From Candidatus Thorarchaeota archaeon (lineage in GTDB: Archaea > Asgardarchaeota > Thorarchaeia > Thorarchaeales > Thorarchaeaceae), in the NCBI GenBank assembly GCA_016839605.1, contig JAEOTX010000149.1, positions 1 through 34,009 of the forward strand: a stretch of 34,009 bases of DNA, read 5' to 3'. A program made the translations under genes and the position numbers. Positions 2,685 to 32,058 of the stretch are shown in pieces. The stretch's first letter is position 1. Every line of letters begins with the position of its first letter. The notes under the pieces were generated by a model. That model was given only the letters and a program-made list of their open reading frames with translations. It was not told the origin of the DNA and did not search any database.

Positions 2685-2865
2685 AATGATTTAGAATGAA
2701 AACATTGTCAAGTATTAGTCTTACTGAAGAGAAACTTGCTGCACTGGGGAGATATCTGCCCGTTTCATTATTCCCGGAATCCAAAAGGTATATTATTGGC
2801 CGGCATCGGACCCTCTTGGGATATCCAATTCCAGATATGCCATGTCAATTCAGGAGGAAGTCGAA
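2685..2865. promoter_or_regulatory. Divergent promoter region between ligase and livG
   Basis: Short intergenic stretch between two divergent units. On the plus strand, TATATTA at 2789-2795, preceded by an A-rich CCAAAAGG, is a good archaeal TATA/BRE candidate that predicts transcription from about 2815-2820. A strong Shine-Dalgarno AGGAGG at 2852-2857 follows, eight bases before TTG at 2866. No equally clear TATA box is visible for the leftward ligase gene. Inferred from pattern only. Confidence 0.5.
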
Positions 2866-3660
2866 TTGTCCTCAGCGAATGAACTTATCCTGAGCACGAG
2901 TGGGTTGACCAAGAATTTTGGTGGTCTAGTTGCTGTCAATGATGTAAGTCTTGATGTCGAAAGAGGTTCGATAAAAGCAATCATCGGTCCAAATGGGTCC
3001 GGAAAAACTACCTTTTTCAATCTCATTACAGGAGCCCTTCCACCTACAGCTGGACGAATATTCTTTGAAGGTCAAAATATAACTAGATCCTCAATGCATC
3101 AACGGACACGACTAGGCATATCACGCTCCTATCAGATCACGAATATCTTCCCGTATCAAACAACATTCGAGAATATTCGATTGGCAGCTCAGGGCTGTAG
3201 TGGTGCAAGAGTAAACTTCCTAGGGATGTTAAAGAGAGCAGGCTCATATGATGAGTTTCATGAGAAGGTCCTGGATATTGCTTCAATTGTGGGTCTTGAT
3301 CCTACGAGGCTCTATATCCCGGCCGCTTTGATACCGCATGCTGAACAAAGAAAGCTTGAAATCGCGATGGCGCTCGCTACAGAACCGAGACTCCTCTTAC
3401 TTGACGAACCTGCTGCGGGAATGGCAATAGAAGAGATACCAGAGGTTATTGATGCCATTTTGCGGGTAAAAGAATCCTATGGTGATCAACTAACTCTACT
3501 TGTGGTTGAGCATAAGATGGACATTGTTATGACCCTCAGTGAGGAAATCTTTGTTCTTTCAGAAGGAAAGATGATTGCGAAAGGGTCTCCAAAGGAGATC
3601 CAAGAAAATGAACAAGTGTTGACAGCTTATCTTGGTGGTACAGATGAACAACTTGCTTGA
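2866..3660 (+). CDS. livG: Branched-chain/hydrophobic-substrate ABC importer ATPase, LivG type
   Basis: One of the two ATPases of a Liv-type (HAAT) importer. Numbered from the TTG start at 2866: Walker A GPNGSGKT at 41-48, the LivG-specific segment GISRSYQITNIFP near 84-96, Walker B LLLLDEP at 176-182, followed by AAGM, and the switch His216. The ABC signature is odd: at the LSGGQ/LSYGEQ position it reads PHAEQ (157-161), so the conserved Ser and central Gly are gone. I chose TTG at 2866 because AGGAGG lies exactly eight bases upstream. An in-frame ATG at 2842 would add eight residues but has no ribosome site and would place AGGAGG inside the gene. It leads a tightly overlapping operon. The cargo may be amino acids or, given the neighbours, carboxylates. 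Confidence 0.88.
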   Translation: MSSANELILSTSGLTKNFGGLVAVNDVSLDVERGSIKAIIGPNGSGKTTFFNLITGALPPTAGRIFFEGQNITRSSMHQRTRLGISRSYQITNIFPYQTTFENIRLAAQGCSGARVNFLGMLKRAGSYDEFHEKVLDIASIVGLDPTRLYIPAALIPHAEQRKLEIAMALATEPRLLLLDEPAAGMAIEEIPEVIDAILRVKESYGDQLTLLVVEHKMDIVMTLSEEIFVLSEGKMIAKGSPKEIQENEQVLTAYLGGTDEQLA

Positions 3661-4363
3661 AATACAAGACGCTCACGTATACATTGGCTCCTTCTATATT
3701 TTACAAGGAATCTCAATGGTCGTACCCAAAGGAGAAGTGACTCTGTTATTGGGCAGGAACGGTGCTGGTAAAACTACAACGATGAAAACAATACTCGGTC
3801 TCTATCCACCTAGAGAAGGAAAGGTTGTTTTCAAGGGTGAGGAAATATCAAATCTGCCTACCCATAAAATTGTCAATAAAGGCATTGGATATGTCCCTGA
3901 TACCAGAAGGATATTTGGGACACTGACAGTTGAACAGAATCTAACTGTGTCTAGACGGAAGAGCAGTTCTCGGGATGACCTGCAAGAACGATTGGATCTC
4001 ATCTTTGACTTGTTTCCTGACATGAAAGGATTTCTCAAGCAGAGAGCAGGAACTCTGTCTGGCGGTCAACAGCAAATGCTAGCTGTAGCCCGTGCATTGG
4101 TGAATGACAATGATTTGTTGCTCATAGACGAACCTACAGAGGGATTGAGTCCTCTCTTGGCTAAGAATCTTATCAATGCTCTTGACAGACTAAAGGAATT
4201 CGCCACTATCTTACTAGTCGAACAGAACTTTCGGACTGTGTCGAAGCTGGGTGATAACTACTACATTTTCGATAGTGGAAAAATCGTGCATGAGGGCAAT
4301 AACATGAGTGAGCTAATAGCCGACAAGGCACTTGTTGCACAATACTTGGGGGTGAGCATTTAA
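3644..4363 (+). CDS. livF: Branched-chain/hydrophobic-substrate ABC importer ATPase, LivF type
   Basis: The second ATPase of the Liv-type importer, about 239 residues, which is normal for LivF. It has Walker A GRNGAGKTT near residues 37-45, an intact signature LSGGQQQM, Walker B LLIDEP followed by the LivF hallmark TEGLSP, and the switch segment LLVEQN, where Gln replaces the usual His as in other LivF proteins. I prefer ATG 3644, which has GGTGG just upstream; an in-frame TTG at 3632 would add four residues. It overlaps livG by 17 bases and its TAA overlaps the permease ATG (TAATG at 4361-4365). Because LivG has a degenerate signature motif and LivF an intact one, the two ATP sites of the transporter may not be equivalent. 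Confidence 0.9.
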   Translation: MNNLLEIQDAHVYIGSFYILQGISMVVPKGEVTLLLGRNGAGKTTTMKTILGLYPPREGKVVFKGEEISNLPTHKIVNKGIGYVPDTRRIFGTLTVEQNLTVSRRKSSSRDDLQERLDLIFDLFPDMKGFLKQRAGTLSGGQQQMLAVARALVNDNDLLLIDEPTEGLSPLLAKNLINALDRLKEFATILLVEQNFRTVSKLGDNYYIFDSGKIVHEGNNMSELIADKALVAQYLGVSI

Positions 4364-5475
4364 TGACTATGCAAACAAAGAGATTCTCTCCTCGGGATTA
4401 CTTGGAGGAAAACCCACAGGTTCGTAAGATATTGAGAATTGCAATGGTTATTGCACTCATAATAATTGGAGGTCTATTGGTCGTAATGGCTATAGACGTT
4501 TATACATGGGATGGATTTGTTGCAAGGACTAGCAAATCGGTGGTTAATGGTCTTGCGCTCAGCATGTTGCTTTTCTTGATGGTTTCTGGTTTCTTCTTGA
4601 TCTTTGGTCTATGTGATGTCATCAATTTCGCTCATGGCGCTTTCTTTATGTTGGGAGGGTTCATGGGTTTTGTTATCTATCTTGGAACCGAGGCTCTTTT
4701 CCTAGATTCAACCCTGCCGTTCCATCTTATCTTTGGAGCTAATCAATTTGCCATGTCTCTCACAGCTTTTATTGTAAGTGCCCTTGGAGCTACTGCAATT
4801 CTTGCCCTTATTGGTGGAGGAATAGAGTTCTTTACAGTTCGGCGGCTTTATGGCAATCCTATTGCTCAGATACTGCTGACAGTTGGTTTTATGTTCATTA
4901 TCACTCAGATTGCCGAGATCATCTGGGGGCCTCCCCAATTTAGCTACTTCATTACTCCCAATTCGCAAATAGCCTACTTCTTCATGAGTGGTATTCTTGA
5001 TTTTGGCGAAGGGATGATATTTGAGATATATCGCATTTTCTTGATTTTTCTCGGGTTAGCAGTTGCTGCAATAATGTTTGTTGGATTTAGAAAGACACGT
5101 ATCGGACTCCAGATACAAGCAGGTATAGAAGATTCAGAGATGGTTGAAGCGTTAGGGACTGATATCAGAAAATTGTTCACAATTGTATTCATGTTGGGTG
5201 CAGGTCTAGCGGGACTATCAGGTGCTGTCCTGGTCCCGTGGATTGGAGCAAACTCAGGACATGGTTTGACATACCTCATTTACGCTTTTGTCATAGTCGT
5301 TATTGGCGGCGCACATTACGGTCGCTTTGAAGGGACTTTCTTCGGTGCGCTTATAGTCGGTCTATCAATGCAATTCACAGCATATTTCATTCCATTTCTT
5401 GAGAACATCATTGTATTCATCATTATGGCGATTATTCTGATTATAAGACCAGGAGGACTGACGGGTCATGAATGA
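4363..5475 (+). CDS. livH: Liv-type ABC importer permease, LivH family
   Basis: A 370-residue polytopic membrane protein of the LivH permease family. It has a cytoplasmic N-terminus, a first span near residues 24-46, then LivH-like segments such as GLCDVINFAHGAFFMLGGF. The coupling-loop region RKTRIGLQIQAGIEDSEMVEALG (around 245-267) contacts the ATPases. The stretch GAHYGRFEGTFFGALIVGL near the end is also typical of LivH. It is somewhat longer than usual (about 290-310 residues) because of the N-terminal extension. The start is coupled to the livF stop, and its last 8 bases overlap the livM start. With LivM it should form the membrane channel; the substrate is not determinable. Confidence 0.9.
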   Translation: MTMQTKRFSPRDYLEENPQVRKILRIAMVIALIIIGGLLVVMAIDVYTWDGFVARTSKSVVNGLALSMLLFLMVSGFFLIFGLCDVINFAHGAFFMLGGFMGFVIYLGTEALFLDSTLPFHLIFGANQFAMSLTAFIVSALGATAILALIGGGIEFFTVRRLYGNPIAQILLTVGFMFIITQIAEIIWGPPQFSYFITPNSQIAYFFMSGILDFGEGMIFEIYRIFLIFLGLAVAAIMFVGFRKTRIGLQIQAGIEDSEMVEALGTDIRKLFTIVFMLGAGLAGLSGAVLVPWIGANSGHGLTYLIYAFVIVVIGGAHYGRFEGTFFGALIVGLSMQFTAYFIPFLENIIVFIIMAIILIIRPGGLTGHE

Positions 5476-7210
5476 AGAAAGAAAAATCGTTGGGAATCTG
5501 AAAGGAACTATCCTTAGGATACCCTCTATACTTTCAAACAATAGAACAGTAATCGCTGTTCTAGCGTTTTTGTACTTACTCCCATTGGGTACAACTGCAG
5601 GGACGTCCCCCGTTCGAGCTCTGCTCTTCCTTATTACTCAGATAATGATTTTCAGTCTTCTTGCAATGTCTTTTGATCTACAATTAGGCCGTTCAGCGCT
5701 TCTGAATTTTGGACATGTTGCACTTTTCGGTGTGGGGGCTTATTTCATGGCATATACTTTGGATGCAGGTTTTCTCCCCGAGCCCTTTAATGCTATTGCA
5801 GCCATTCCATATCCGCTCACGTTAGTTCTAGCAATGATGATTGGAGGATTTCTTGGGCTTATAATGGGATTGACAACGAGCCGAATGAGAGGCACAGCAT
5901 TTGCATTTATTGCTTTAGCGATTTCGATGTTCCTCTATAATTTCTACGCTGAAAATCCGGGTCTTTCTGGTGGAGAAACAGGACTGGGGGTGCCAACTCC
6001 AGATCTCATCAGGACTGCACCTTTCTATCTGCTCTTTGTCGCCCTTGCATTTGTATTCCTTGCCGCTTTTGCTGGAATGGTCATCCTTTACTTGAAGAAG
6101 CGAACGGATTCAATTGCCCTCATCTTGTTCACTCCAATCATGATAGTCTTTACAGCTTTCCTATTCTTATTTGGAACAAACATCTATGGGCCTATACTGG
6201 TATTCTATGCCTTTCTTGGGATGATACTTCTCTTTTGGATGGAGCGGAAGAGACGAATAAGTGACCCTTTAGAATATGTTGAGAAGACGTTTGCAATGAA
6301 AGGTGAAGTGGAAACCACTAACAAGATGACAACCTATGTAATACCTTTCATTATCATAATAATAACCCTCATAGGTCTGGCAGTTACTTTCGGAACCAAC
6401 ATTGCTGAGATGGTATCCCTGTGGATTGAAGACACCACCACATTCTATTACACAATTCCGGTGCAATTCTATCTAGTATTGACTTGTCTTGTGATGACCT
6501 ACTTCTTCATTAGGCGATTAATTGCATCACCATTTGGGAGAATGGTAACTGCGGTTGCTCAGAATGAAGAACGGGCTGAAGCCTTAGGCTACAATAGCTA
6601 TCGTGCCAAAATAGTCGTTCTTGTTATAAGTGGGGCAATTGCCGCTCTTGCGGGGGCGTTGTATGCACCTTTCATTAGAACTATTGATCCGGGCACTGCA
6701 TTAGGAGTCGAGGTGACAATCAATGCGATGTTGTACACCATTATCGGAGGAATTGGCACACTACTAGGCCCAATACTCGGCACAGGAGTAGTGGTGTACT
6801 CTGAGCTAAATCTGGTAGACTTCATCACGGAGGGTCTAGGCCTACCTGGACGATTATGGTTGGTTGGGCTAGGAGTGATGTATATTTTCATTGTTCTATT
6901 CATGCCCCTTGGTATCGTAGGTTCTATTGGACGCAGGGCTGGGTCTATCAAAGAAAGTCTACGACAATTGAAATTCGGTCGTTTTGAGTTTGGACTGAAG
7001 GATGTTGACTATTGGGTATTTGGGTTCCTAGGAATAATGGGCCTATTCTTCTTCTTGGTGGAAGATCCTAGGTTTCTCCCTATTGCTATCGGTATCTTTG
7101 GATTTCTGGGGGTAGTAGGTTTCTTCCTTTTGTATATCTTTAGAGGGGAGATTTCATCGAGAATAAGAAGCTACGCCAAGAAATTGCGCTTTGCTAGAGG
7201 AGGCGATTGA
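5468..7210 (+). CDS. livM: Enlarged Liv-type ABC importer permease, LivM family
   Basis: The second permease subunit. At 580 residues it is much longer than ordinary LivM proteins (roughly 300-430). The N-terminal LivM part (FDLQLGRSALLNFGHVALFGVGAY, then GGETGLGVP near residue 170) and the C-terminal part (GRMVTAVAQNEERAEALGYN, then GALYAPF and YTIIGGIGTLLGP) are canonical. Between them, about residues 185-335, lies an insertion with several extra hydrophobic spans and the charged loop RKRRISDPLEYVEKTF. After the usual end (MPLGIVG) there is a further 80-90 residue tail with about two more spans. The reading frame is uninterrupted, so this looks like a real architecture. It overlaps livH by 8 bases; the next gene starts directly after its stop. 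Confidence 0.87.
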   Translation: MNEERKIVGNLKGTILRIPSILSNNRTVIAVLAFLYLLPLGTTAGTSPVRALLFLITQIMIFSLLAMSFDLQLGRSALLNFGHVALFGVGAYFMAYTLDAGFLPEPFNAIAAIPYPLTLVLAMMIGGFLGLIMGLTTSRMRGTAFAFIALAISMFLYNFYAENPGLSGGETGLGVPTPDLIRTAPFYLLFVALAFVFLAAFAGMVILYLKKRTDSIALILFTPIMIVFTAFLFLFGTNIYGPILVFYAFLGMILLFWMERKRRISDPLEYVEKTFAMKGEVETTNKMTTYVIPFIIIIITLIGLAVTFGTNIAEMVSLWIEDTTTFYYTIPVQFYLVLTCLVMTYFFIRRLIASPFGRMVTAVAQNEERAEALGYNSYRAKIVVLVISGAIAALAGALYAPFIRTIDPGTALGVEVTINAMLYTIIGGIGTLLGPILGTGVVVYSELNLVDFITEGLGLPGRLWLVGLGVMYIFIVLFMPLGIVGSIGRRAGSIKESLRQLKFGRFEFGLKDVDYWVFGFLGIMGLFFFLVEDPRFLPIAIGIFGFLGVVGFFLLYIFRGEISSRIRSYAKKLRFARGGD

Positions 7211-7211
7211 G

Positions 7212-8051
7212 TTGCCACATGTAGCTATAGGTGACGTTGATCTCTATTATGAATCTCATGGGGCCCCCGGACTCCCAACAATTGTTTTCATTGGAGGATG
7301 GGCCAGTTACCGTTGGATATGGTTTCGACAAATTCCCTACTTAAAAGAAAGATACAGATGTATTGTCTTTGATAATCGTGGATCCGGAAGAAGTTCCAAA
7401 CCTGATTATCCGTATACAATGGATATGTTTGCTAGCGATACCGTTGGTCTGATGGAGGCATTGAATATCGAAACTGCACATGTCCTAGGGATTTCAATGG
7501 GTGGATTGATTGCACAGCAAATAGCTATTTCCTATCCTGAAAAGCTTCGAAGTTTGATCATTGTTTCTAGCCATTTTGGAGGGCCCAATCATATTCCTAT
7601 AGATGACAAAACACTGGCCTTGCTAGGTGCCATTCCCACTGAAACAATCTCGAGAGAGCAGTCCATGGAGATGCGTTATAGGGCAACTTTCAGTCCGCAG
7701 TTCCTTCAAGAAAACAGGTCATTGATAGAATTAACACAAGAATGGGCAAATAAGCATCCAGCACCGCTATTTGCACAAGTACATCAAGCCTCTGCAACAA
7801 GCGCATTTAATGCTGAATCGGAATTGAAAAAGATATCTGCACCTACACTTATCTTACATGGAGATAGTGACCTTGCGGTACCGACTAGGAATGGAGAACT
7901 GTTAGATCAACGCATATCCAATTCGAAATTGAAAATCATAAAGGACGCATCACATTTTGTCATCATTGAAAAGCATGAAGAGTTCAATAATGAGGTAATG
8001 AATTTTATAGATGAAGTGGAACAAGGACAATTCTCTCCTAGGCCCCAGTAG
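7212..8051 (+). CDS. Alpha/beta-hydrolase fold protein, serine type
   Basis: About 279 residues, a standalone alpha/beta-hydrolase. The nucleophile elbow is GISMGG with Ser95 (numbered from the 7212 start). The acid is probably Asp220 in HGDSDLAVP, and the base His248 in DASHFVIIE. The oxyanion region FIGGWAS and the segment DNRGSGRSSKP are typical of esterase, enol-lactonase and C-C-bond hydrolase relatives. TTG at 7212 is chosen because AGAGGAGG at 7196-7203 lies eight bases before it and the livM stop ends at 7210; an upstream in-frame TTG at 7191 precedes that ribosome site. It is in the importer operon and may hydrolyse an ester, lactone, thioester or 1,3-diketone-type intermediate. Substrate unknown. 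Confidence 0.85.
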   Translation: MPHVAIGDVDLYYESHGAPGLPTIVFIGGWASYRWIWFRQIPYLKERYRCIVFDNRGSGRSSKPDYPYTMDMFASDTVGLMEALNIETAHVLGISMGGLIAQQIAISYPEKLRSLIIVSSHFGGPNHIPIDDKTLALLGAIPTETISREQSMEMRYRATFSPQFLQENRSLIELTQEWANKHPAPLFAQVHQASATSAFNAESELKKISAPTLILHGDSDLAVPTRNGELLDQRISNSKLKIIKDASHFVIIEKHEEFNNEVMNFIDEVEQGQFSPRPQ

Positions 8052-8112
8052 AAGGTGATTTAGGCAAGAAAGAGTGTGCTTGTCCAGATATCAAACTTAG
8101 AGGAAGTTGTAG

Positions 8113-9123
8113 ATGGTTCGTTCAGCTGTGGTCACAAGTCTGGGAATGTATGTTCCTGAAAAGATGTTAACAAATGAAGAAATTGAGCAGATGCTTGATC
8201 GTCCTGGAACAGCAGATTGGTTGGTGGAGAATGTTGGCATCAGACAACGTCACATCATGGCTGAAGATGAGGTGACATCTGATCTTGCTCTTCATGCTGG
8301 TCGTGAAGCATTAGAAAATACGGGATTGGAAGCAGACGATCTCGACCTAATCATTTTGAGTACTGACACACCGGACTATCTATCTCCAGCAACTTCCGTT
8401 GTGGTTCAGCACAAACTCGGCGCAAAAAATGCAGGTACATTTGATGTCAACTGCGCTTGTGCCGGTTTGGTCACTTCTTTGGATATTGCTTCTCGATATA
8501 TCAAAACAGACTCGGACATTAATTCGGTATTGGTGATTGGCGCATATGGAATGACCAAATTTGTAGATTGGACTGATCACTATACCTGTACGTTGTTTGC
8601 GGACGCTGCAGGAGCTATGGTAGTGCGAGCCAGTGAAGACCAAGAAGGATTCATAGCCTCAAAATTGATTTCGGATGGCTCATTCCACGATCATCTAGGT
8701 ATCTTCGTTGGAGGAACAGCTGAGCCACCAACAGTTGAAGCAATCCAGAATCATAGGCACCATCTATCTTTTCGTAAACGCTTTCCTGCAGACACAAACC
8801 TCCAACATTGGCCAACTATGACAAGAGATTGTGTATCAAAGGCGAATCTATCCATCGAGGATATCGATTGGATTTTCTTCACTCAGGTGAACATACGAAC
8901 TATTGAGGCGGTAATGAAGGAACTAGGTATGCCTCTTGAGAAGACCCACAATGTTATGGATAAATGGGGTTATACAGGTTCAGCTTGTATTGCATTGGCG
9001 ATGTACGATGCAATTGAGCAAGGAAAACTTCCGCCACCTGGACAAGGAAATGGTGAGAATATAGCACTCTGCTCGTCGGGGGGAGGTTTCAACATGGCTG
9101 CCGCTGTGTTGAAATGGTGGTAA
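8113..9123 (+). CDS. Second KAS III (FabH)-like condensing-enzyme homologue, atypical active site
   Basis: A 336-residue FabH-family protein. The nucleophile Cys116 is kept in FDVNCACAGL, with a further Cys at 114. The His of the PHQAN motif is Thr257 (FFTQVNIRTIEAV, otherwise closely aligned), and the Asn of YGNTS is Tyr287 (KWGYTGSA). The alignment is clean on both sides of each change, so these are substitutions rather than misalignment. The normal malonyl-decarboxylating chemistry is unlikely; acyl transfer, thiolysis or non-decarboxylative condensation are possible. It diverges considerably from the KAS III-like gene at 130-1152, so the two are probably not redundant and could even pair. 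It lies 61 bases after a hydrolase and 70 before a ligase, in the same direction. Confidence 0.85.
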   Translation: MVRSAVVTSLGMYVPEKMLTNEEIEQMLDRPGTADWLVENVGIRQRHIMAEDEVTSDLALHAGREALENTGLEADDLDLIILSTDTPDYLSPATSVVVQHKLGAKNAGTFDVNCACAGLVTSLDIASRYIKTDSDINSVLVIGAYGMTKFVDWTDHYTCTLFADAAGAMVVRASEDQEGFIASKLISDGSFHDHLGIFVGGTAEPPTVEAIQNHRHHLSFRKRFPADTNLQHWPTMTRDCVSKANLSIEDIDWIFFTQVNIRTIEAVMKELGMPLEKTHNVMDKWGYTGSACIALAMYDAIEQGKLPPPGQGNGENIALCSSGGGFNMAAAVLKWW

Positions 9124-9193
9124 GGGATTTTTATTCCGGTTGTTCTTGATAATGCATATTGAGCAGGTATAGATTTCCTACTGAGGGGATTCA

Positions 9194-10744
9194 ATGGTAA
9201 ACCAGTTTGATTATTTATCCAAGAGGGACATCTTCTCACCAGAGGCTGAAGCTCTAGTAGATGTTGAAACCGGGAGAAGATACTCCTATAGGGCGTTCAA
9301 CAAACGTGCGAATAAGGTCGCCAACTTCCTTCAACAAGTAGTTGAATTTCAGAAGGGGGATCGTTTATGCATTCTTGCCCAAAATAGCTTGGAATACTGG
9401 GAAACGTTTTTCGGATGTCAAAAGAGTGGAGGTATTTTCAGTCCGCTCAACTGGCGGTTGGTCGCTCGAGAATTAGCGGGACTGATTGATGATCTTGCCC
9501 CCTCCGTGTTATTCTTTGATTCTGAACTAGCTGAAGTTGCATCAGAGCTGAAGCAAGATGTCACGGTTGAACACTGGGTCTCATTGGATTCGAAAGGAAC
9601 GGAAGTGGAAGGTTCTCTAAGCTACGAGGAAGGTATGAATAAAGCAGCATCCAGTCCGCCTGATGCAGTTGATCTCTCTTATGAAGATCCAATGGGCATC
9701 GTATTTACTGGAGGGACAACGGGTCTTCCAAAAGGTGCTATGATTACCTACAGACAGGTTGCGTTCAACACTCTTACTACAATTAGGGACATCCTTCCTG
9801 GTGATGTCTACATAAATCATCTACCTCTCTTCCATGTCGGAGGACTCTATGTTTATGCAATTCCACTCTTCATATTGGGAGGAAAAGTAATCCAAATGAA
9901 GAGATGGGATCTTGATGTGTTAATTGATGTAATCAACAAGGAGAATCCAAACTTCTTCTTTGCCGTTCCCACGCAATATCGAATGCTGATGAATCATCCT
10001 GATTTCAACTCAATTGACTTCAAGAACGTTCGATTCTTGACATCCGGAGGCGAACCTTTACCCTTAGACATTATCAAGACATTCCGAGAGAAACACGGAG
10101 TAAAATTCAAACAAGGTTTTGGAATGACAGAGGTTGGACCAGGTTGTTTTGCTCTTGATCCATGGGATGCTGAACGTAAGATTGGCAGTATTGGTACGCC
10201 CAACTTCTTCATCGACGCGAAAGTAGTTGATCCTGAAACCGGAAGGGACTGCAGTGCAAACGAGGTTGGTGAACTTCTGTTCAGAGGACCAACGGTGACT
10301 ATTGGCTACTGGAATCGACCAGAATTGAATAAGACGCTATTAGATGAAGGTGGCTGGTTTAGCACAGGCGACATGGTCTATTTCGATGATGAGGGGTACT
10401 ACTATGTAGTGGATCGGGTGAAGGACATGTTCATCTCTGGGGGTGAGAATGTCTATCCCAGAGAAATCGAAAAACTCCTGGAAGAGCATCCAAAGATAGC
10501 TCAAGTGCAGGTAATCGGCGTACCTGATTCCAAATGGGGAGAGGTTGGACGTGCGATTGTTGTCTTGAAGGCGGGACAAGAAGCATCGGAGGAAGAAATA
10601 ATCGACTACTGCGAAGGTAAACTGGCTAGATTCAAGATTCCCAAATCAGTGCGCTTCACAGAGAGTTTCACTTCCTATATCTCGGGAGCGGGAAAGATCC
10701 TAAAACGAAGATTGCGGGAGGATTTTGGACAGGAGGAGAAATAG
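9194..10744 (+). CDS. Second AMP-forming acyl-CoA synthetase
   Basis: A 516-residue adenylate-forming CoA ligase, paralogous to the one at 1149-2684. Motifs: P-loop FTGGTTGLPKG (171-181), GFGMTEVGP (308-316), TGD (391-393), DRVKDMFISGGENVYP (407-422) and the catalytic Lys501 in GAGKILKRRL. The gene starts at ATG 9194 behind GAGGGG. Two bases separate its stop from the second hydrolase, so the pair is co-transcribed. Having a second ligase beside a single importer suggests either two related substrates or activation of both a parent acid and a product acid. The exact acid is not readable from the sequence. Confidence 0.92.
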   Translation: MVNQFDYLSKRDIFSPEAEALVDVETGRRYSYRAFNKRANKVANFLQQVVEFQKGDRLCILAQNSLEYWETFFGCQKSGGIFSPLNWRLVARELAGLIDDLAPSVLFFDSELAEVASELKQDVTVEHWVSLDSKGTEVEGSLSYEEGMNKAASSPPDAVDLSYEDPMGIVFTGGTTGLPKGAMITYRQVAFNTLTTIRDILPGDVYINHLPLFHVGGLYVYAIPLFILGGKVIQMKRWDLDVLIDVINKENPNFFFAVPTQYRMLMNHPDFNSIDFKNVRFLTSGGEPLPLDIIKTFREKHGVKFKQGFGMTEVGPGCFALDPWDAERKIGSIGTPNFFIDAKVVDPETGRDCSANEVGELLFRGPTVTIGYWNRPELNKTLLDEGGWFSTGDMVYFDDEGYYYVVDRVKDMFISGGENVYPREIEKLLEEHPKIAQVQVIGVPDSKWGEVGRAIVVLKAGQEASEEEIIDYCEGKLARFKIPKSVRFTESFTSYISGAGKILKRRLREDFGQEEK

Positions 10745-10746
10745 CC

Positions 10747-11553
10747 ATGCCATTCAGTGAAGTAAATGGGATAAACATCTATTATGAGATCCATGGCAAA
10801 GGTGAGCCAGTAGTCTTTGGTAATGGTGTCTTCCAAAATACATTGGGGTGGGTCAATCAGATTCCAACGTTTTCTAAAGAGTATCAAGTCATATTGTATG
10901 ACATGCGTGGGCAAGGCCAAAGCGATAAGCCCGAAGGTCCATATTCTTTCGAAATCCATGCTGAAGACCAAAAGACTCTTCTCGAAAATCTTGGGATTTC
11001 TGAAGTTCATCATGTTGGAATCAGTTACGGGGCTGAACTTGGTCTAGTCTTTGCGTTGACATATCCAGAAATGCTGAAGAGCCTTGTCGTTTGTAGTGCT
11101 GTTTCATTTGTAGGACCCTTACTCAATAAGATGGTCCAATTATGGAGGTATGCTTGTGCTCGTGAGGACCCTGAGATGTTCTATTTCGCAACATTGCCTT
11201 TGAATTTTAGCGAGACCTTCCTTCGAGAGCAAACTGCTGTTCTAGAACAAGCAAAAGAACGATACGTGCATTTAGATTTTCCACCGCTTGTAAGATTGAT
11301 AGATGCTTTTCTGAAGCTGAATATCACGGACAAGTTACCGCAGATCGAAATACCCACTTGTGTCATTGCGGGTGAGAAGGATATTTTGAAGCCTGCATAT
11401 CCGTATTCGATGGTGATTCATGATGGTGTGCCCAATTCAGAAATGGTCATAATTCGTGATTCGGGGCATGCCATTATGTTTGACAAACCCGAAGAGTTCA
11501 ACAGCATAGTTCTAGGATTCTTACGAAAGCATTCCCAATCGCATAAACTCTAG
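10747..11553 (+). CDS. Second alpha/beta-hydrolase fold protein, serine type
   Basis: A 268-residue alpha/beta-hydrolase. Catalytic residues visible: Ser93 in GISYGAE, Asp212 in AGEKDILKP, His241 in RDSGHAIMFDKPEEF. The segment YDMRGQGQSDKP and overall layout resemble 3-oxoadipate enol-lactonase and related esterases or thioesterases. A strong AGGAGG precedes the ATG, and the gene follows the ligase by two bases. Its nucleophile is Ser, not Asp, which argues against a haloalkane dehalogenase or beta-lactone decarboxylase (OleB) role. It is only distantly similar to the hydrolase at 7212-8051. It ends the rightward importer operon before the solute-binding protein promoter. Confidence 0.85.
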   Translation: MPFSEVNGINIYYEIHGKGEPVVFGNGVFQNTLGWVNQIPTFSKEYQVILYDMRGQGQSDKPEGPYSFEIHAEDQKTLLENLGISEVHHVGISYGAELGLVFALTYPEMLKSLVVCSAVSFVGPLLNKMVQLWRYACAREDPEMFYFATLPLNFSETFLREQTAVLEQAKERYVHLDFPPLVRLIDAFLKLNITDKLPQIEIPTCVIAGEKDILKPAYPYSMVIHDGVPNSEMVIIRDSGHAIMFDKPEEFNSIVLGFLRKHSQSHKL

Positions 11554-11593
11554 AGAGGGGTAATTCCGCTGTTATTCCCCAATTTCCTTAAGA

Positions 11594-11644
11594 GATATAT
11601 ATCGGGGGCCCCAGCGTTAAGGGCTAGACATAGAATGTCTATGT
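11594..11644 (+). promoter_or_regulatory. Promoter and candidate operator of the solute-binding protein gene
   Basis: GATATATAT at 11594-11602 is a strong archaeal TATA box and predicts transcription start near 11623-11627. A perfect inverted repeat, ACATAGA-ATG-TCTATGT (7-bp arms, 11628-11644), begins right at the predicted start. That is a position where archaeal repressors commonly block transcription. A GGAGG ribosome site at 11682-11686 follows, 7 bases before the ATG at 11694. This gives the binding-protein gene its own, probably regulated, promoter. Inferred from pattern only. Confidence 0.5.
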
Positions 11645-11693
11645 TCTAAATCTAACACAATACTGTTCAAGTACTGTGATTGGAGGAAAGAAG

Positions 11694-13187
11694 ATGAAAA
11701 AAATACGAACGATATCGCTATCTCTTTTGTTGCTACTATCGGTATCCCTCTTCTTGCCCTGTTTCTTGGCTAGACCAGCTGCTGCACAGCCAGACCCAAT
11801 TAAGATTGGAGTTTTCACCCCCGAAACAGCAGGTCTGATAGCATATGGACCATGGACAAAACAAGGCTTCTCATTGGGATTGGAATATGCAACTACGATG
11901 ATGGGATATGATAATAAGAACAAGACCGAAGCAGGTCGGCCCTATGAAGTTCACTTTTATGATACTCAGGGTGATATAACCCATGCAGCATCCGAAGCAG
12001 TAGATGCTATCGAAACTGATGGAATCGACATTCTCGTCGGAGGAACTTCTAGTGCAGTTGCCGCAGCAATAGCACCTATTGCTGAAGATTATGAAAAGCT
12101 ATATTTCATAAGTCCAGCTGCTGCTTCTTCACTGACTGCTGCTGACTTTAATCCATACATTTTCCGTATCGCCAGAAACAACTGGCATGATGCCTATGCA
12201 GGCGTCACGTATGCTATGGATTACCTCAACTATACGAAATTCGCCTTTCTTGCTGCTGATTATTCCTTTGGATATGACGGCGTTGCTTCAATGACAACTG
12301 TAATCGAGGACAAGGGAGGAGTAGTGCTCAGTTCCGTGTATGCAAATCTCTTTGATACTGATTTCTCTCAAGAGATTGATGCTCTCAAAGCTGCTGATTT
12401 AGTAAACGATATTGAGTATCTGTTCATCATTTGGGCTCTTGACTTCTCATATCTATACAATGACATGACAACATACAATCTCGCAGCTGACATGGAAATT
12501 GCTGGAGCATGTATTGATATCCTTTCAATGAACACCATTGAAGCGAGTTTGACTCCTCCAGCTACCTACATCGGTTCCACTGGGCTCTGTCTGTACGGCT
12601 ATGAACTACCCAACAACACGGTTAATGATTGGATGGTGGACCAGCATGTCACACAAAACATCATGCCGAATCATCTCTTTGCACTGACCTATCGAGTACC
12701 AGAGCTTTTCACTGCAAGTGCCTTTGCAACGGCGCAATTCTTGGTTGATGTAACAAATGCGGTCCCAGATCTAGATACGCATTCGATGATCAACTATCTT
12801 GAAGGCGGCATTACCATTGACTGCCCGAAGGGACCAACATACTTGAGACCGGGTGACCATCAAGGGCTTGCAGAGATGTATATCGCAGAAGCTGTGAATG
12901 ATACCCGCTCCGGGTCTGAAACAGAGAATCTCGTCATTGCCGAATTGGTTGAAACCTTAGACCGTGACACTGTTGCACCTCCAGTTGAGGCTGTCTGGGA
13001 TGGCGTTCCATATGTTCCAGGTGGATTCGCACCAGAAACAACCACTACTACTACTACTACCACTCCTACGACGACAACCGAACCTCCACCACCACCACCA
13101 CCGATTGATCCGATACTGCTTCTGGCACTCGGTGGCGGAGCTCTAGTAGTGATAGTCCTCATTGTCGTGGTAATGAAAAGGCAATAG
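11694..13187 (+). CDS. Membrane-anchored Liv-type solute-binding protein
   Basis: The extracellular receptor of the importer, a type I periplasmic-binding-fold protein (LivJ/LivK, receptor-ligand-binding family) of about 497 residues. It has a Sec signal (MKKIRT followed by a long Leu/Ser stretch, with AAAQ as likely cleavage site), then PIKIGVFTPETAG. The central motifs VGGTSSAVAAAIAPIAEDY and ISPAAASSLT are typical of the ligand cleft. After residue about 445 comes a Thr/Pro linker, a run of Pro, and one C-terminal membrane span ending VVMKRQ. This linker-plus-anchor layout is common in archaeal binding proteins and places it outside the cell. ATG 11694 is chosen over GTG 11676 because GGAGG lies between them. 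It has its own promoter downstream of the importer operon. Confidence 0.9.
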   Translation: MKKIRTISLSLLLLLSVSLFLPCFLARPAAAQPDPIKIGVFTPETAGLIAYGPWTKQGFSLGLEYATTMMGYDNKNKTEAGRPYEVHFYDTQGDITHAASEAVDAIETDGIDILVGGTSSAVAAAIAPIAEDYEKLYFISPAAASSLTAADFNPYIFRIARNNWHDAYAGVTYAMDYLNYTKFAFLAADYSFGYDGVASMTTVIEDKGGVVLSSVYANLFDTDFSQEIDALKAADLVNDIEYLFIIWALDFSYLYNDMTTYNLAADMEIAGACIDILSMNTIEASLTPPATYIGSTGLCLYGYELPNNTVNDWMVDQHVTQNIMPNHLFALTYRVPELFTASAFATAQFLVDVTNAVPDLDTHSMINYLEGGITIDCPKGPTYLRPGDHQGLAEMYIAEAVNDTRSGSETENLVIAELVETLDRDTVAPPVEAVWDGVPYVPGGFAPETTTTTTTTTPTTTTEPPPPPPPIDPILLLALGGGALVVIVLIVVVMKRQ

Positions 13188-13330: not shown

Positions 13331-13726
13331 TTATGTCGAGAGTAGATCGCCGACTTCTTTGGCGTATTTCCTCATCTGAGTTGTAGCCAAGCCCATGGAT
13401 GTCAAGTCTTTGGCGGCACCCATAAGTAGAAACTCGCCAGCCTGTGAAAGGACAGCAAAACCCTTCGCTCCTCTGACCGTCACCTCAAAGAGTTCTCCCA
13501 AATCAAGCCTCTCTGGAGATGCAGCCATCTCTCCAGTCATCAACAATGCTGCACTTACAGCAGCCATGAGGTCTGGATCTGCTTCAGAGTCCTCTGTGGC
13601 GAAGTACGCCAGCTTTACACCCTGTTTGCTGACAACCGCAATGGCGTCAAGGTCAGCATAGTTGGTCAATCCCATTAGGAGCTCTACGAGTTCCTTCTCC
13701 TTTTCTGGGTCGAGATGTTGCGACAT
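13331..13726 (-). CDS. Roadblock/LC7-domain protein
   Basis: A 131-residue single-domain Roadblock/LC7 (MglB-like) protein. The fold is recognisable from an N-terminal helix (LVELLMGLTNY), the strand-turn DLDAIAVVSKQGVKLAY, a central helix DPDLMAAVSAALLMTGEMA and a strand pair ending FLLMGAAKD. Family members bind small GTPases as activators or scaffolds, or act in dynein- and Ragulator-like complexes; they are expanded in Asgard archaea. No partner GTPase lies in this window. It sits 28 bases downstream of the gelsolin-like gene on the same strand with a GGGAG site before the ATG, so the two are likely co-transcribed. A link between GTPase signalling and actin regulation is an inference from this pairing. 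Confidence 0.87.
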   Translation of the reverse strand: MSQHLDPEKEKELVELLMGLTNYADLDAIAVVSKQGVKLAYFATEDSEADPDLMAAVSAALLMTGEMAASPERLDLGELFEVTVRGAKGFAVLSQAGEFLLMGAAKDLTSMGLATTQMRKYAKEVGDLLST

Positions 13727-13754
13727 GATATCTTGCTCCCTATTGATTCAGTGG

Positions 13755-14693
13755 TTATTTTGCTACTAGCTTCTTCTTCTTTTTAGTGGTCTTAGCCTTT
13801 CCCTTCGCGGCTGGTACAGCAGGCGCTTCTGTTTCGGACCTGAAGAAACTGATAAGGTCTCCCAAGCGCTCTTTCATCTCTTGCTTGATTGGGCTCAGAA
13901 TGGCTTCAGGCGTGCCCTTTAGTAATTCAATGCCTAGGACCTTCCCATCCTTCACAATAACGCGAGGAATGAATCCCTCTGCCATAAATGTGCCCTCTGG
14001 CGGATCCCTGACTTTTTCGAACTTCCTCTCGACTTTCTCTTGTCCAAAGACGGCTATCTTATGCTCTGCAACTGTGAACAATTCATTATACACGATTAGC
14101 AGTTCTCTCTGGTAGCCTTCAGGTGGATCAGTTGTCTGCAACTCCTCAATCATAGCGCTTATCTCACTTGAGACTGGCACTGCAGGGGGAGCAGTAGCTG
14201 GAGCTGCCTTTGGGATTGCTGCAGGTTTGGGTGGGGCTTTGGCTGTAGCAGGTGGCTTCGGAGGCGGTGCCGCTGCTTTTGGAGCTGGTTTCGGCTTCGG
14301 AGGTGGTGCAGTTTCTACCTTTGCAGTTGGTGTTTCTGCGGCAGGTGCTTTTGGTTTTGGCTTTGGGGGGGCTGTAGTCGGAGCCTTCTCTCCTGGCTTA
14401 AGGACACGTGTTGCAGCTGTTGTGCCATCTAAGGCGGTGAAAAACGTTGGCGGCTCTTCGCCTTCGTCTACCGCGCGTACCTTGAAATGGAATCCGTACT
14501 CAGTTCGAAGATTGGTAGCAACTCTGGCACCAATGAATTTCCTTCTGATTCCTGCTTGAGTACCCTTCCAAAGATAGATTGACTTGGTCTCGTCGTCAAC
14601 AACGCAGACAACCATTTGAGAATCTAAGTCCGCTTTGGAAATCTCAACTTCGTTGAGGGTTCCATCCTCCATTACCTCATAACCTACGACCAT
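13755..14693 (-). CDS. Gelsolin-like domain protein with Pro/Ala/Lys linker and a C-terminal domain
   Basis: A 312-residue protein in three parts. Residues about 25-90 read as one gelsolin-like domain: VVCVVDDETKSIYLWKG, a helix with ARVATNL, then VRAVDEGEEPPTFFTAL, matching the gelsolin pattern of a strand, Y-x-W-x-G, a helix and the GEEP-x-F ending. Residues about 100-175 are a low-complexity Pro/Ala/Lys linker. Residues about 178-295 form a further unrecognised domain, followed by a Lys-rich tail. Gelsolins bind, sever or cap actin in eukaryotes, and Asgard gelsolin-like proteins are known to act on actin. It heads a two-gene unit with a Roadblock protein. Function on archaeal actin is inferred; alternatively it is a signalling scaffold. 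No signal peptide or membrane span, so cytosolic. Confidence 0.7.
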   Translation of the reverse strand: MVVGYEVMEDGTLNEVEISKADLDSQMVVCVVDDETKSIYLWKGTQAGIRRKFIGARVATNLRTEYGFHFKVRAVDEGEEPPTFFTALDGTTAATRVLKPGEKAPTTAPPKPKPKAPAAETPTAKVETAPPPKPKPAPKAAAPPPKPPATAKAPPKPAAIPKAAPATAPPAVPVSSEISAMIEELQTTDPPEGYQRELLIVYNELFTVAEHKIAVFGQEKVERKFEKVRDPPEGTFMAEGFIPRVIVKDGKVLGIELLKGTPEAILSPIKQEMKERLGDLISFFRSETEAPAVPAAKGKAKTTKKKKKLVAK

Positions 14694-14816: not shown

Positions 14817-14913
14817 TTGTTATTGTGGTGGATGTAGCACGTACAAACACTGAAAGTGAAGCAGGTCAACAAGCCTTATGTAGCAGGGGAGCTAACGGCT
14901 TTCGTTGGTGCCG

Positions 14914-15972
14914 ATGACTGAACAGTCAGCTGAAGCATTCTATGCTGAGCAATTTGGTAAAGGCAAGACTCTCACTGTGTTCCAGCTAATTCTAGGCTTT
15001 GTTATCTCTACACTCATTATGGTTGGATCCACTTGGGGTCTCATATACGTCTATGACGTTCTGACAGATTTCACAATATCACCATCGAATCTAGGCATTT
15101 ACACGCTTGCAATGACGATAGGATCTCTTGTTGCTACGATAATTGGTGTAATTGTATGTTATGTCATTCTGAAGGTCCCGCGTTCCGCTTTGGTGCTATT
15201 GAGGGTTCATGAGTTTTTCAAGAGAGGCACTGGTGAGTATTTTGTCTGGCCAGAACCCAAGAATCAAAGCTTGAGACTTGTCTTTCGGAGGGCGCTATAC
15301 GGCTCTATTCTAGTTGTTGGCATTGGCATGACCCTGGTCAGTTTTGAATTGATGGGCGTTGCACAAACTGCGGATCTTGCTGTTTTTGGCACTTGGGTTG
15401 TGATTATCTCTGCAGCTGTTCTTCCTCTCACGATTCTGATATTGTACTATGGTCCGTGGCTCATTAAGGATGCAGGCCTCTTCCACATGGACCTCAGGGA
15501 TCGCTCACTCAGCAATGTAGGCGACGACTTAGAAGACATGCTCGAGTTCTTTGCAGGGGTTGATCTGGTTCTTGTTTGGCTTGAGTTGACATTGACGGCA
15601 GGCTTCGAGCAACCCTGGTTTTCAGTATTTGTGATCATGGTAGCTTTGGGTCCTCTGCTCGCCATAATCTTCAATTTCACCCTCGTGTTCATGTTTATCA
15701 AAAACCGAGCCACGTTGCAGATTATTGACCGCTTGGTGGCCCGATATGATACGCAAGATATGTTCAACGCATCAGACAGCATCAGAACCAAAGTCCTCGC
15801 CCTCATTGATAGAGATATTCTTGCTTCACTAGAAACATCTGATGATGATGCTAGTACTTCCGTTGAAGAAGAATATGACTCCATTCCGATTGAATCTGAT
15901 GAGACCGAGGAACCTGCTGTGACTCAAGAAGAAGATACTGTTGTCACTGAAGAAGAAGACAGCTGGACTTAG
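14914..15972 (+). CDS. Unrecognised multi-span membrane protein with acidic C-terminal tail
   Basis: I do not recognise a family. From ATG 14914 the protein has about 352 residues and roughly five or six membrane spans: near 20-45 (LILGFVISTLIMVGSTWGLIYV), 57-82, 123-147, 152-180 and 232-264. Soluble loops lie between them, including one after the second span with FKRGTGEYFVWPEP. The last 50 residues are soluble and very acidic, rich in Glu, Asp, Ser and Thr (VEEEYDSIPIESDETEEP). There is no signal peptide beyond the first span. A TTG at 14905 is an alternative start. It is divergent from the gelsolin-like/Roadblock pair and convergent with thiQ (8 bases apart). The acidic tail could be a cytoplasmic docking segment; that is speculation. 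Confidence 0.7.
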   Translation: MTEQSAEAFYAEQFGKGKTLTVFQLILGFVISTLIMVGSTWGLIYVYDVLTDFTISPSNLGIYTLAMTIGSLVATIIGVIVCYVILKVPRSALVLLRVHEFFKRGTGEYFVWPEPKNQSLRLVFRRALYGSILVVGIGMTLVSFELMGVAQTADLAVFGTWVVIISAAVLPLTILILYYGPWLIKDAGLFHMDLRDRSLSNVGDDLEDMLEFFAGVDLVLVWLELTLTAGFEQPWFSVFVIMVALGPLLAIIFNFTLVFMFIKNRATLQIIDRLVARYDTQDMFNASDSIRTKVLALIDRDILASLETSDDDASTSVEEEYDSIPIESDETEEPAVTQEEDTVVTEEEDSWT

Positions 15973-31346: not shown

Positions 31347-32024
31347 TCAGTCGAGCCTCGTGTTTTCTAATAGACGAGTGAGTGGGATGTCGAAATATTC
31401 ACCTGTTGGCAACGTTCTTCTGACAGTCATCGGGAGGACACGAGCACGTAGTTCTGCTTCTGCCAGAGAAAACAGCTCACTGGGGGCAGTTCGTGTATCG
31501 ACTATCACAGGTGCACCCATTGAAATCTGCAAAGCCCTTGCTCCAATAATCCTGGCTTTCTCAAACCTACTCAGCCATTTCGGACCAATGGGAATGCCCA
31601 TTGATACCTTATCTGTTTCAAGTCCTGTTTTCAGACTGGATCGGATCTTGGCGCGAGCAATCTCCTCAGCCGGAGGTAGTTCATGAACATCAGGATCTGG
31701 TTCGGGGGCTTTCTTCCTCTTTGATTTCTTGCCCTTTCGAGTAAGGTCTATCTCTCCAGCCTCGACTGCTTCTTTCAGCTTTGTCGCAGCTGTAATGAAA
31801 TCAACTGCCTTTGCTGTACTGACTCCAGGAACGGCCGCTGCAAGCTCTTCAGAATCTGCTGAAGCGATCTTATCTATGGTATCATAGCCGGCTGCGACCA
31901 ATTTCTCGGCATTCTTGGGTCCAACCGATTGGATATTTGTGAGAATCTGTGCTTTCTCAGCATCAGTTTCCTCTTTAGATTCCTCTTCAGTCTTGGTTTC
32001 CGTTTCCTTGGGGTCGTCTGACAT
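31347..32024 (-). CDS. rpo6: Helix-hairpin-helix/RNA polymerase subunit Rpo6 (RpoK, RPB6-like) fusion
   Basis: About 225 residues. The C-terminal part (about 148-220) is the Rpo6/RPB6/omega core: [22 protein letters not shown], then [27 protein letters not shown], which follows the archaeal RpoK order closely. Archaeal Rpo6 is normally only about 55-120 residues. Here it is preceded by an acidic leader rich in Glu and Lys (about 1-25), a helix-hairpin-helix region (about 30-84: [19 protein letters not shown] and [16 protein letters not shown]) and a basic linker [13 protein letters not shown]. The helix-hairpin-helix resembles DNA-binding tandem motifs of RAD51/XPF type. ATG 32024 is preferred; GTG 32030 is an alternative. 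It lies 34 bases downstream of the thermosome gene, so the two are probably co-transcribed. Fusion is seen directly; its role is unknown. Confidence 0.85.
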
Positions 32025-32058
32025 ACGCACACCTGCTCTCTATTGTGTTTGACTGCTT

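Follow-up and report, generated by a model that had tools for sequence, protein, structure and literature searches.

A gelsolin gene and a Roadblock gene paired across Asgard archaea: a candidate two-protein actin-regulator module

Asgard archaea are the closest living relatives of eukaryotes. Of interest here are the means by which these cells control their actin skeleton and whether actin was under GTPase control before eukaryotes arose. We analysed a window of 34,009 nucleotides from a Candidatus Thorarchaeota archaeon (contig JAEOTX010000149.1), in which the gene for a protein with one gelsolin domain and, after it, a domain of another kind, the architecture of the 1DGelX class, is directly followed by a Roadblock/LC7 gene. 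The pairing of the two genes in Asgard archaea is ancient and specific, and a functional link between their products, as predicted from it, is likely. With moderate confidence, we propose that this ancient operon encodes a two-protein actin-regulator module, in which the Roadblock protein would be docked on 1DGelX to give a platform recognisable by small GTPases. The unit comprises the following features:

13755-14693 (-): 1DGelX gene, 312 aa, with a gelsolin domain, a Pro/Ala/Lys linker, an X domain and a basic tail
14418-14693 (-): single gelsolin domain, residues 1-92, with the W-x-G motif W42-K43-G44 and a long basic helix-like stretch, I49-R63
14169-14417 (-): low-complexity Pro/Ala/Lys linker, residues 93-175, 31% Pro, with two PPP runs
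13824-14168 (-): X domain, residues 176-290, predicted as a helix, five strands and a helix
13758-13823 (-): Lys-rich C-terminal tail of 1DGelX
13727-13754 (-): intergenic spacer of 28 bases, read directly, with a GGGAG motif resembling a ribosome site at 13740-13736
13331-13726 (-): Roadblock/LC7 gene, 131 aa, orthologue of the 1DGelX-linked Roadblock gene in other Asgard archaea

The first-pass annotation had placed the two reading frames on one strand, 28 bases apart, which is exact. Its two family calls are right, gelsolin by phmmer and family profile and Roadblock by Pfam, and its picture of a lone gelsolin-like domain joined by a Pro/Ala/Lys linker to an unknown C-terminal domain is borne out; that domain, about residues 176-290, has no Pfam family. 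Only the extent needs correction: the gelsolin domain is present, but it covers residues 1-92 instead of 25-90. With one strand, short spacing and an order conserved in other genomes, the two genes have the marks of a two-gene operon, and no GTPase gene lies within it. The pair stands alone, as the downstream gene (11676-13187 (+), a periplasmic-binding protein) converges on it and the upstream gene (14905-15972 (+), no Pfam match) diverges from it. A promoter and terminator scan of the locus used bacterial consensus patterns, which are uninformative for an archaeon. Elsewhere in the window, reading the translations of 2842-13187 by eye, we recognised genes of a branched-chain amino acid type ABC transporter, adjoined by acyl-CoA ligase, ketoacyl-synthase-like and alpha/beta-hydrolase genes. 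The protein encoded at 31347-32030 (-) carries an RNA polymerase subunit K (Rpb6-like) domain at its C-terminus, and its N-terminal region resembles the helix-hairpin-helix domains found in RadA and its relatives.

Judged by profile, the gelsolin assignment is secure, and the profile search that had been suggested as its check came out in its favour. The single 312-aa sequence misses PF00626 at the cut-off, and the isolated domain reaches E 0.077; in phmmer the same protein matches the solved Asgard gelsolin 7C2F at E 1.2e-12 and the two-domain Asgard gelsolins (2DGels) at 2.5e-8 and weaker. A profile of the 19-member family recovers Asgard 2DGels at 1e-17 to 6e-12, 7C2F at 2.6e-16 and animal gelsolins at 4e-11, with villin also among its matches, and PF00626 itself is matched by 18 of the 19 members (best E 4e-6). 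In the W-x-G motif, W is kept in 67 and G in all of 70 1DGelX homologues. Neither phmmer nor Pfam finds a second gelsolin domain in the protein, which places it outside the 2DGel class; its plan, in which a domain of another kind follows the lone gelsolin domain, is that of 1DGelX. An ADF/cofilin identity (PF00241) was considered and rejected, with a match in one of the 19 members only, at E 0.14.

The analysis points to X as an undescribed domain found in Asgard archaea. Its profile has matches in 198 of 228 Asgard genomes, including 43 of the 45 of good quality, and in the proteins examined X is accompanied by a gelsolin domain except where a contig end cuts the gene. A conserved-peptide scan of 84,980 species genomes, whose reach is close relatives only, hit nothing but Asgard-labelled MAGs and two labelled simply 'archaeon'; the nearest named relatives of the window's X domain in it are Thorarchaeota MAGs. 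Across 39 diverse Asgard members, R196, E197, G234, R244 and E256 (numbering of the window protein) are invariant. The structure prediction of the C-terminal domain that the annotation had advised gives a confident model that matches no known fold: a second AlphaFold2 model, from the 39-sequence alignment, has a mean pLDDT of 87.7 (91-95 in most of the core), and its topology is a helix, five strands and a long helix, with no helix between strands. Pfam searches with the 39 members and a PDB profile search returned no known family, and Foldseek returned no fold relative for either of two models (mean pLDDT 84 and 88) against the PDB, or for the second against viral structures; the best values were E 0.07-0.4 at a TM of about 0.2. 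Neither the profiles nor the predicted order of elements supports reading X as a Roadblock/longin domain or as another gelsolin domain.

The 131-aa protein scores 33.1 bits on PF03259 (cut-off 23; E 4.6e-8), and the profile of linked orthologues matches the solved Roadblock proteins 9JUE (5.4e-11) and 7F8M (1.4e-9). The 3.08-Mb host genome holds only eight Roadblock domains, and a single one of them reaches E<=1e-18 with the linked-orthologue profile. Roadblock proteins usually regulate small GTPases, and GTPase-independent roles also exist. Two variants of the locus were seen in passing. At locus L005 of G033, the gene that comes directly after the pair on its downstream side (2962-3360) encodes a 132-aa protein whose sequence character is, by eye, Roadblock/longin-like, with no Pfam match. 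Families f24 and f25 encode, no more than a few kb from 1DGelX, a Roadblock protein of 284-309 aa (L094:1436-2338, L095:1541-2395, L096:4315-5244). Its Roadblock domain is joined by a long linker of low complexity to a C-terminal end that is conserved, DKEAVLEALKVLGWEE, mirroring the domain-linker-domain plan of 1DGelX.

Conservation of the pair in Asgard genomes, which the first-pass annotation had made a test of its idea, holds. Taking the best Roadblock place per genome, a Roadblock orthologue lies within about 1 kb of X or 1DGelX in 101 of 125 genomes, these being the strongest matches, with f15, f18, f19, f22 and other more distant families of weaker X and Roadblock matches outside the score. 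Of the linked genomes, 98 have both genes on the same strand and three on opposite strands. The Roadblock query profile was built from linked copies and may favour linked lineages, yet it finds unlinked ones. Eight families are linked (f1, f2, f3, f7, f9, f12, f26 and f27). Linkage is not obligatory, because no genome of f10, f13, f20 or f28 has the orthologue linked; three f2 genomes lack the linkage too, and there the orthologue may be on another contig. Within the Thor-like family, Roadblock adjoins 1DGelX at 27 of 27 loci; an apparent counter-example, G002, was discarded, as an assembly gap leaves a run of N inside its linker. Among the loci read, genome repeats included, all 110 same-strand cases have Roadblock downstream, at a median gap of 31 nt. 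It is a neighbour at all 36 named 1DGelX loci, in MAGs labelled Thor-, Loki-, Odin- and Baldrarchaeota, versus none of 20 loci chosen as controls, which hold other single-gelsolin genes and come from 20 genomes of one family, the host genome among them. Chance adjacency is estimated at less than 1% per genome (16 neighbouring slots over about 3000 genes), because the 3.08 Mb hold only eight Roadblock domains; this count and the control set rule out a chance neighbourhood through common Roadblock genes. The outer neighbours vary by lineage while the pair persists, and by eye no small-GTPase gene was recognised beside it at the loci read. In the f27 loci L076, L082 and L087, Roadblock adjoins 1DGelX on the opposite strand, and therefore the linkage can outlast a shared transcript. 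As for other neighbours, the gene just upstream in L070, L078, L081, L085 and L093 resembles, by eye, that of a bifunctional enzyme of NAD(P)HX repair (Nnr-type), and downstream in L078, L081 and L087 a large protein, shared by eye, has a vWA domain (by Pfam, run on L078 only).

Such a pattern can be read in two ways. First, the pair may be a co-expression unit only: both proteins would serve the same process, such as membrane or cytoskeleton dynamics, with no mutual binding, 1DGelX working alone on actin and Roadblock on a GTPase elsewhere. We consider this possible but distinctly the less probable reading. It would account for linkage being lost or inverted in some lineages though both genes persist; however, a physical partnership is the better fit to a fixed order and short spacing that persist in eight families while the neighbours change, and two-gene units of this type usually encode stoichiometric partners. 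Second, the proteins may bind each other, as we propose.

The calcium-ligand positions of the gelsolin domain were assigned by sequence alignment to Asgard 2DGel domains; which residues are the type I and type II ligands we take from what is known of human gelsolin and from the aligned 2DGel residues. At the type II Glu position (residue 51), 56 of 70 1DGelX proteins have R or K and most others S, V, L, A, I or N, and at the type I Asp position (residue 63), 69 have R and one K; the compared Asgard 2DGel domains have E and D there. The single-domain chain 7C2F, aligned with them, lacks the ligand residues too, and their absence is therefore not decisive for gelsolin membership. According to the 2DGel paper, the type I site in D1 coordinates Glu167 of actin (PMC9433394). 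The host genome encodes a clear actin, whose YEG motif keeps the Glu167 equivalent, and we hypothesise from these sequences that the type I Arg could form a direct salt bridge with this Glu, replacing calcium.

The same residues could be read otherwise, and the gelsolin fold of 1DGelX may have been repurposed, so that the protein works off actin and its basic gelsolin helix and X bind a membrane, a GTPase or Roadblock partners. The conserved basic residues R50, K52, R57 and R63 in place of calcium ligands would suit such a role, and Sec23 has a gelsolin fold without acting on actin. Against this, the nearest solved relative, 7C2F, is an Asgard single gelsolin domain, presumably a member of a series of actin-complex structures. 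Asgard single-domain gelsolins (ProGel) are reported to act on actin (PMC9433394), and we regard repurposing as unlikely.

The order of gelsolin domain, linker of 64-129 aa and X is constant across 70 distinct homologues. A comparison of 19 Thor-like sequences gives mean pairwise identities of 81% for the gelsolin domain and 78% for X, against 36% for the linker and 45% for the tail, and therefore the gelsolin domain and X are both under strong constraint. An LVAK end is invariant in complete Thor-like 1DGelX proteins and missing from the other families. That 1DGelX is a scaffold whose linker recruits profilin, the Roadblock protein being its localiser, is very improbable: Thor-like linkers are 21-34% Pro with PPP runs, and a Thor profilin binds polyproline at 250-500 uM (PMC8410842), but these runs are found mainly in Thor-like relatives and a few others, and what most families keep is the length of the linker and not its composition.

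In the module that we propose, the single gelsolin domain of 1DGelX would bind actin independently of calcium, and the flexible linker would keep X apart from that domain. The docking partner of 1DGelX would be a Roadblock homodimer, with X as the most likely site, and dimerisation would unite two gelsolin domains into a functional analogue of a 2DGel, thus tying the paired domains to a Roadblock platform that small GTPases may recognise. Actin binding, the complex of the two proteins, X as the docking site and the coupling to GTPases are all steps that we infer, and GTPase coupling, the route to actin at which the first-pass annotation had hinted, is the least certain of them. The host genome has 30 Ras-family GTPase matches, and in MK-D1 small-GTPase genes are generally outside operons with Roadblock, longin or TRAPPC3 genes (PMC10933270). 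A bolder form of the proposal we put forward tentatively, as probably going too far: X would be a new Asgard domain that docks a dedicated Roadblock dimer, and through the operon a gelsolin that needs no calcium would be physically joined to a platform for small GTPases. This would be GTPase-to-actin control of an ancient, non-eukaryotic form that existed early in Asgard evolution. Most Asgard Roadblock genes carry no genomic hint to their partners, and this pair gives one specific, phylum-wide candidate partner. With the two genes adjacent, whether GTPase signalling is directly linked to actin becomes a testable question in Asgard cells.

Asgard gelsolins were reportedly introduced in a PNAS paper of 2020. 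The protein class itself is already known, as its architecture was named '1DGelX' in published Asgard work, which counts two such proteins in MK-D1 and three in GC14_75 (Akil 2022, PMC9433394); the mention, in the part of that paper available to us, gives no sequence, partner, X fold or Roadblock linkage. From the name and count, the published proteins share one gelsolin domain and an X domain with ours, and the Lokiarchaeota-labelled loci L108, L118 and L136 carry a 1DGelX protein of the window type. No description of a gelsolin-Roadblock gene pair in Asgard archaea was found in the open-licence literature, where absence is not proof. Asgard ProGel, a single gelsolin/cofilin-like domain with 7C2F as the nearest solved chain, resembles the window protein in its single gelsolin domain without calcium-ligand residues, but it is about 94 aa long, without linker or X, and none of the 20 short-gelsolin loci has a Roadblock neighbour. 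The Asgard 2DGels (7C2G, 7C2H, 7WHF and 7WHG) share the gelsolin fold, with a significant profile match, but they have two gelsolin domains and the calcium-ligand E and D, and the window 1DGelX lacks both. Asgard Roadblock/LC7 proteins (7F8M and 9JUE by sequence) share the full-length Roadblock domain (profile E about 1e-9 to 5e-11), but these have been studied free-standing or as GTPase fusions. MglA-MglB and the Ragulator/TRAPP Roadblock platforms offer a parallel for a Roadblock dimer as a GTPase-binding platform; to our knowledge they have no gelsolin partner, whereas the window unit joins a gelsolin gene to the Roadblock gene and has no GTPase gene of its own.
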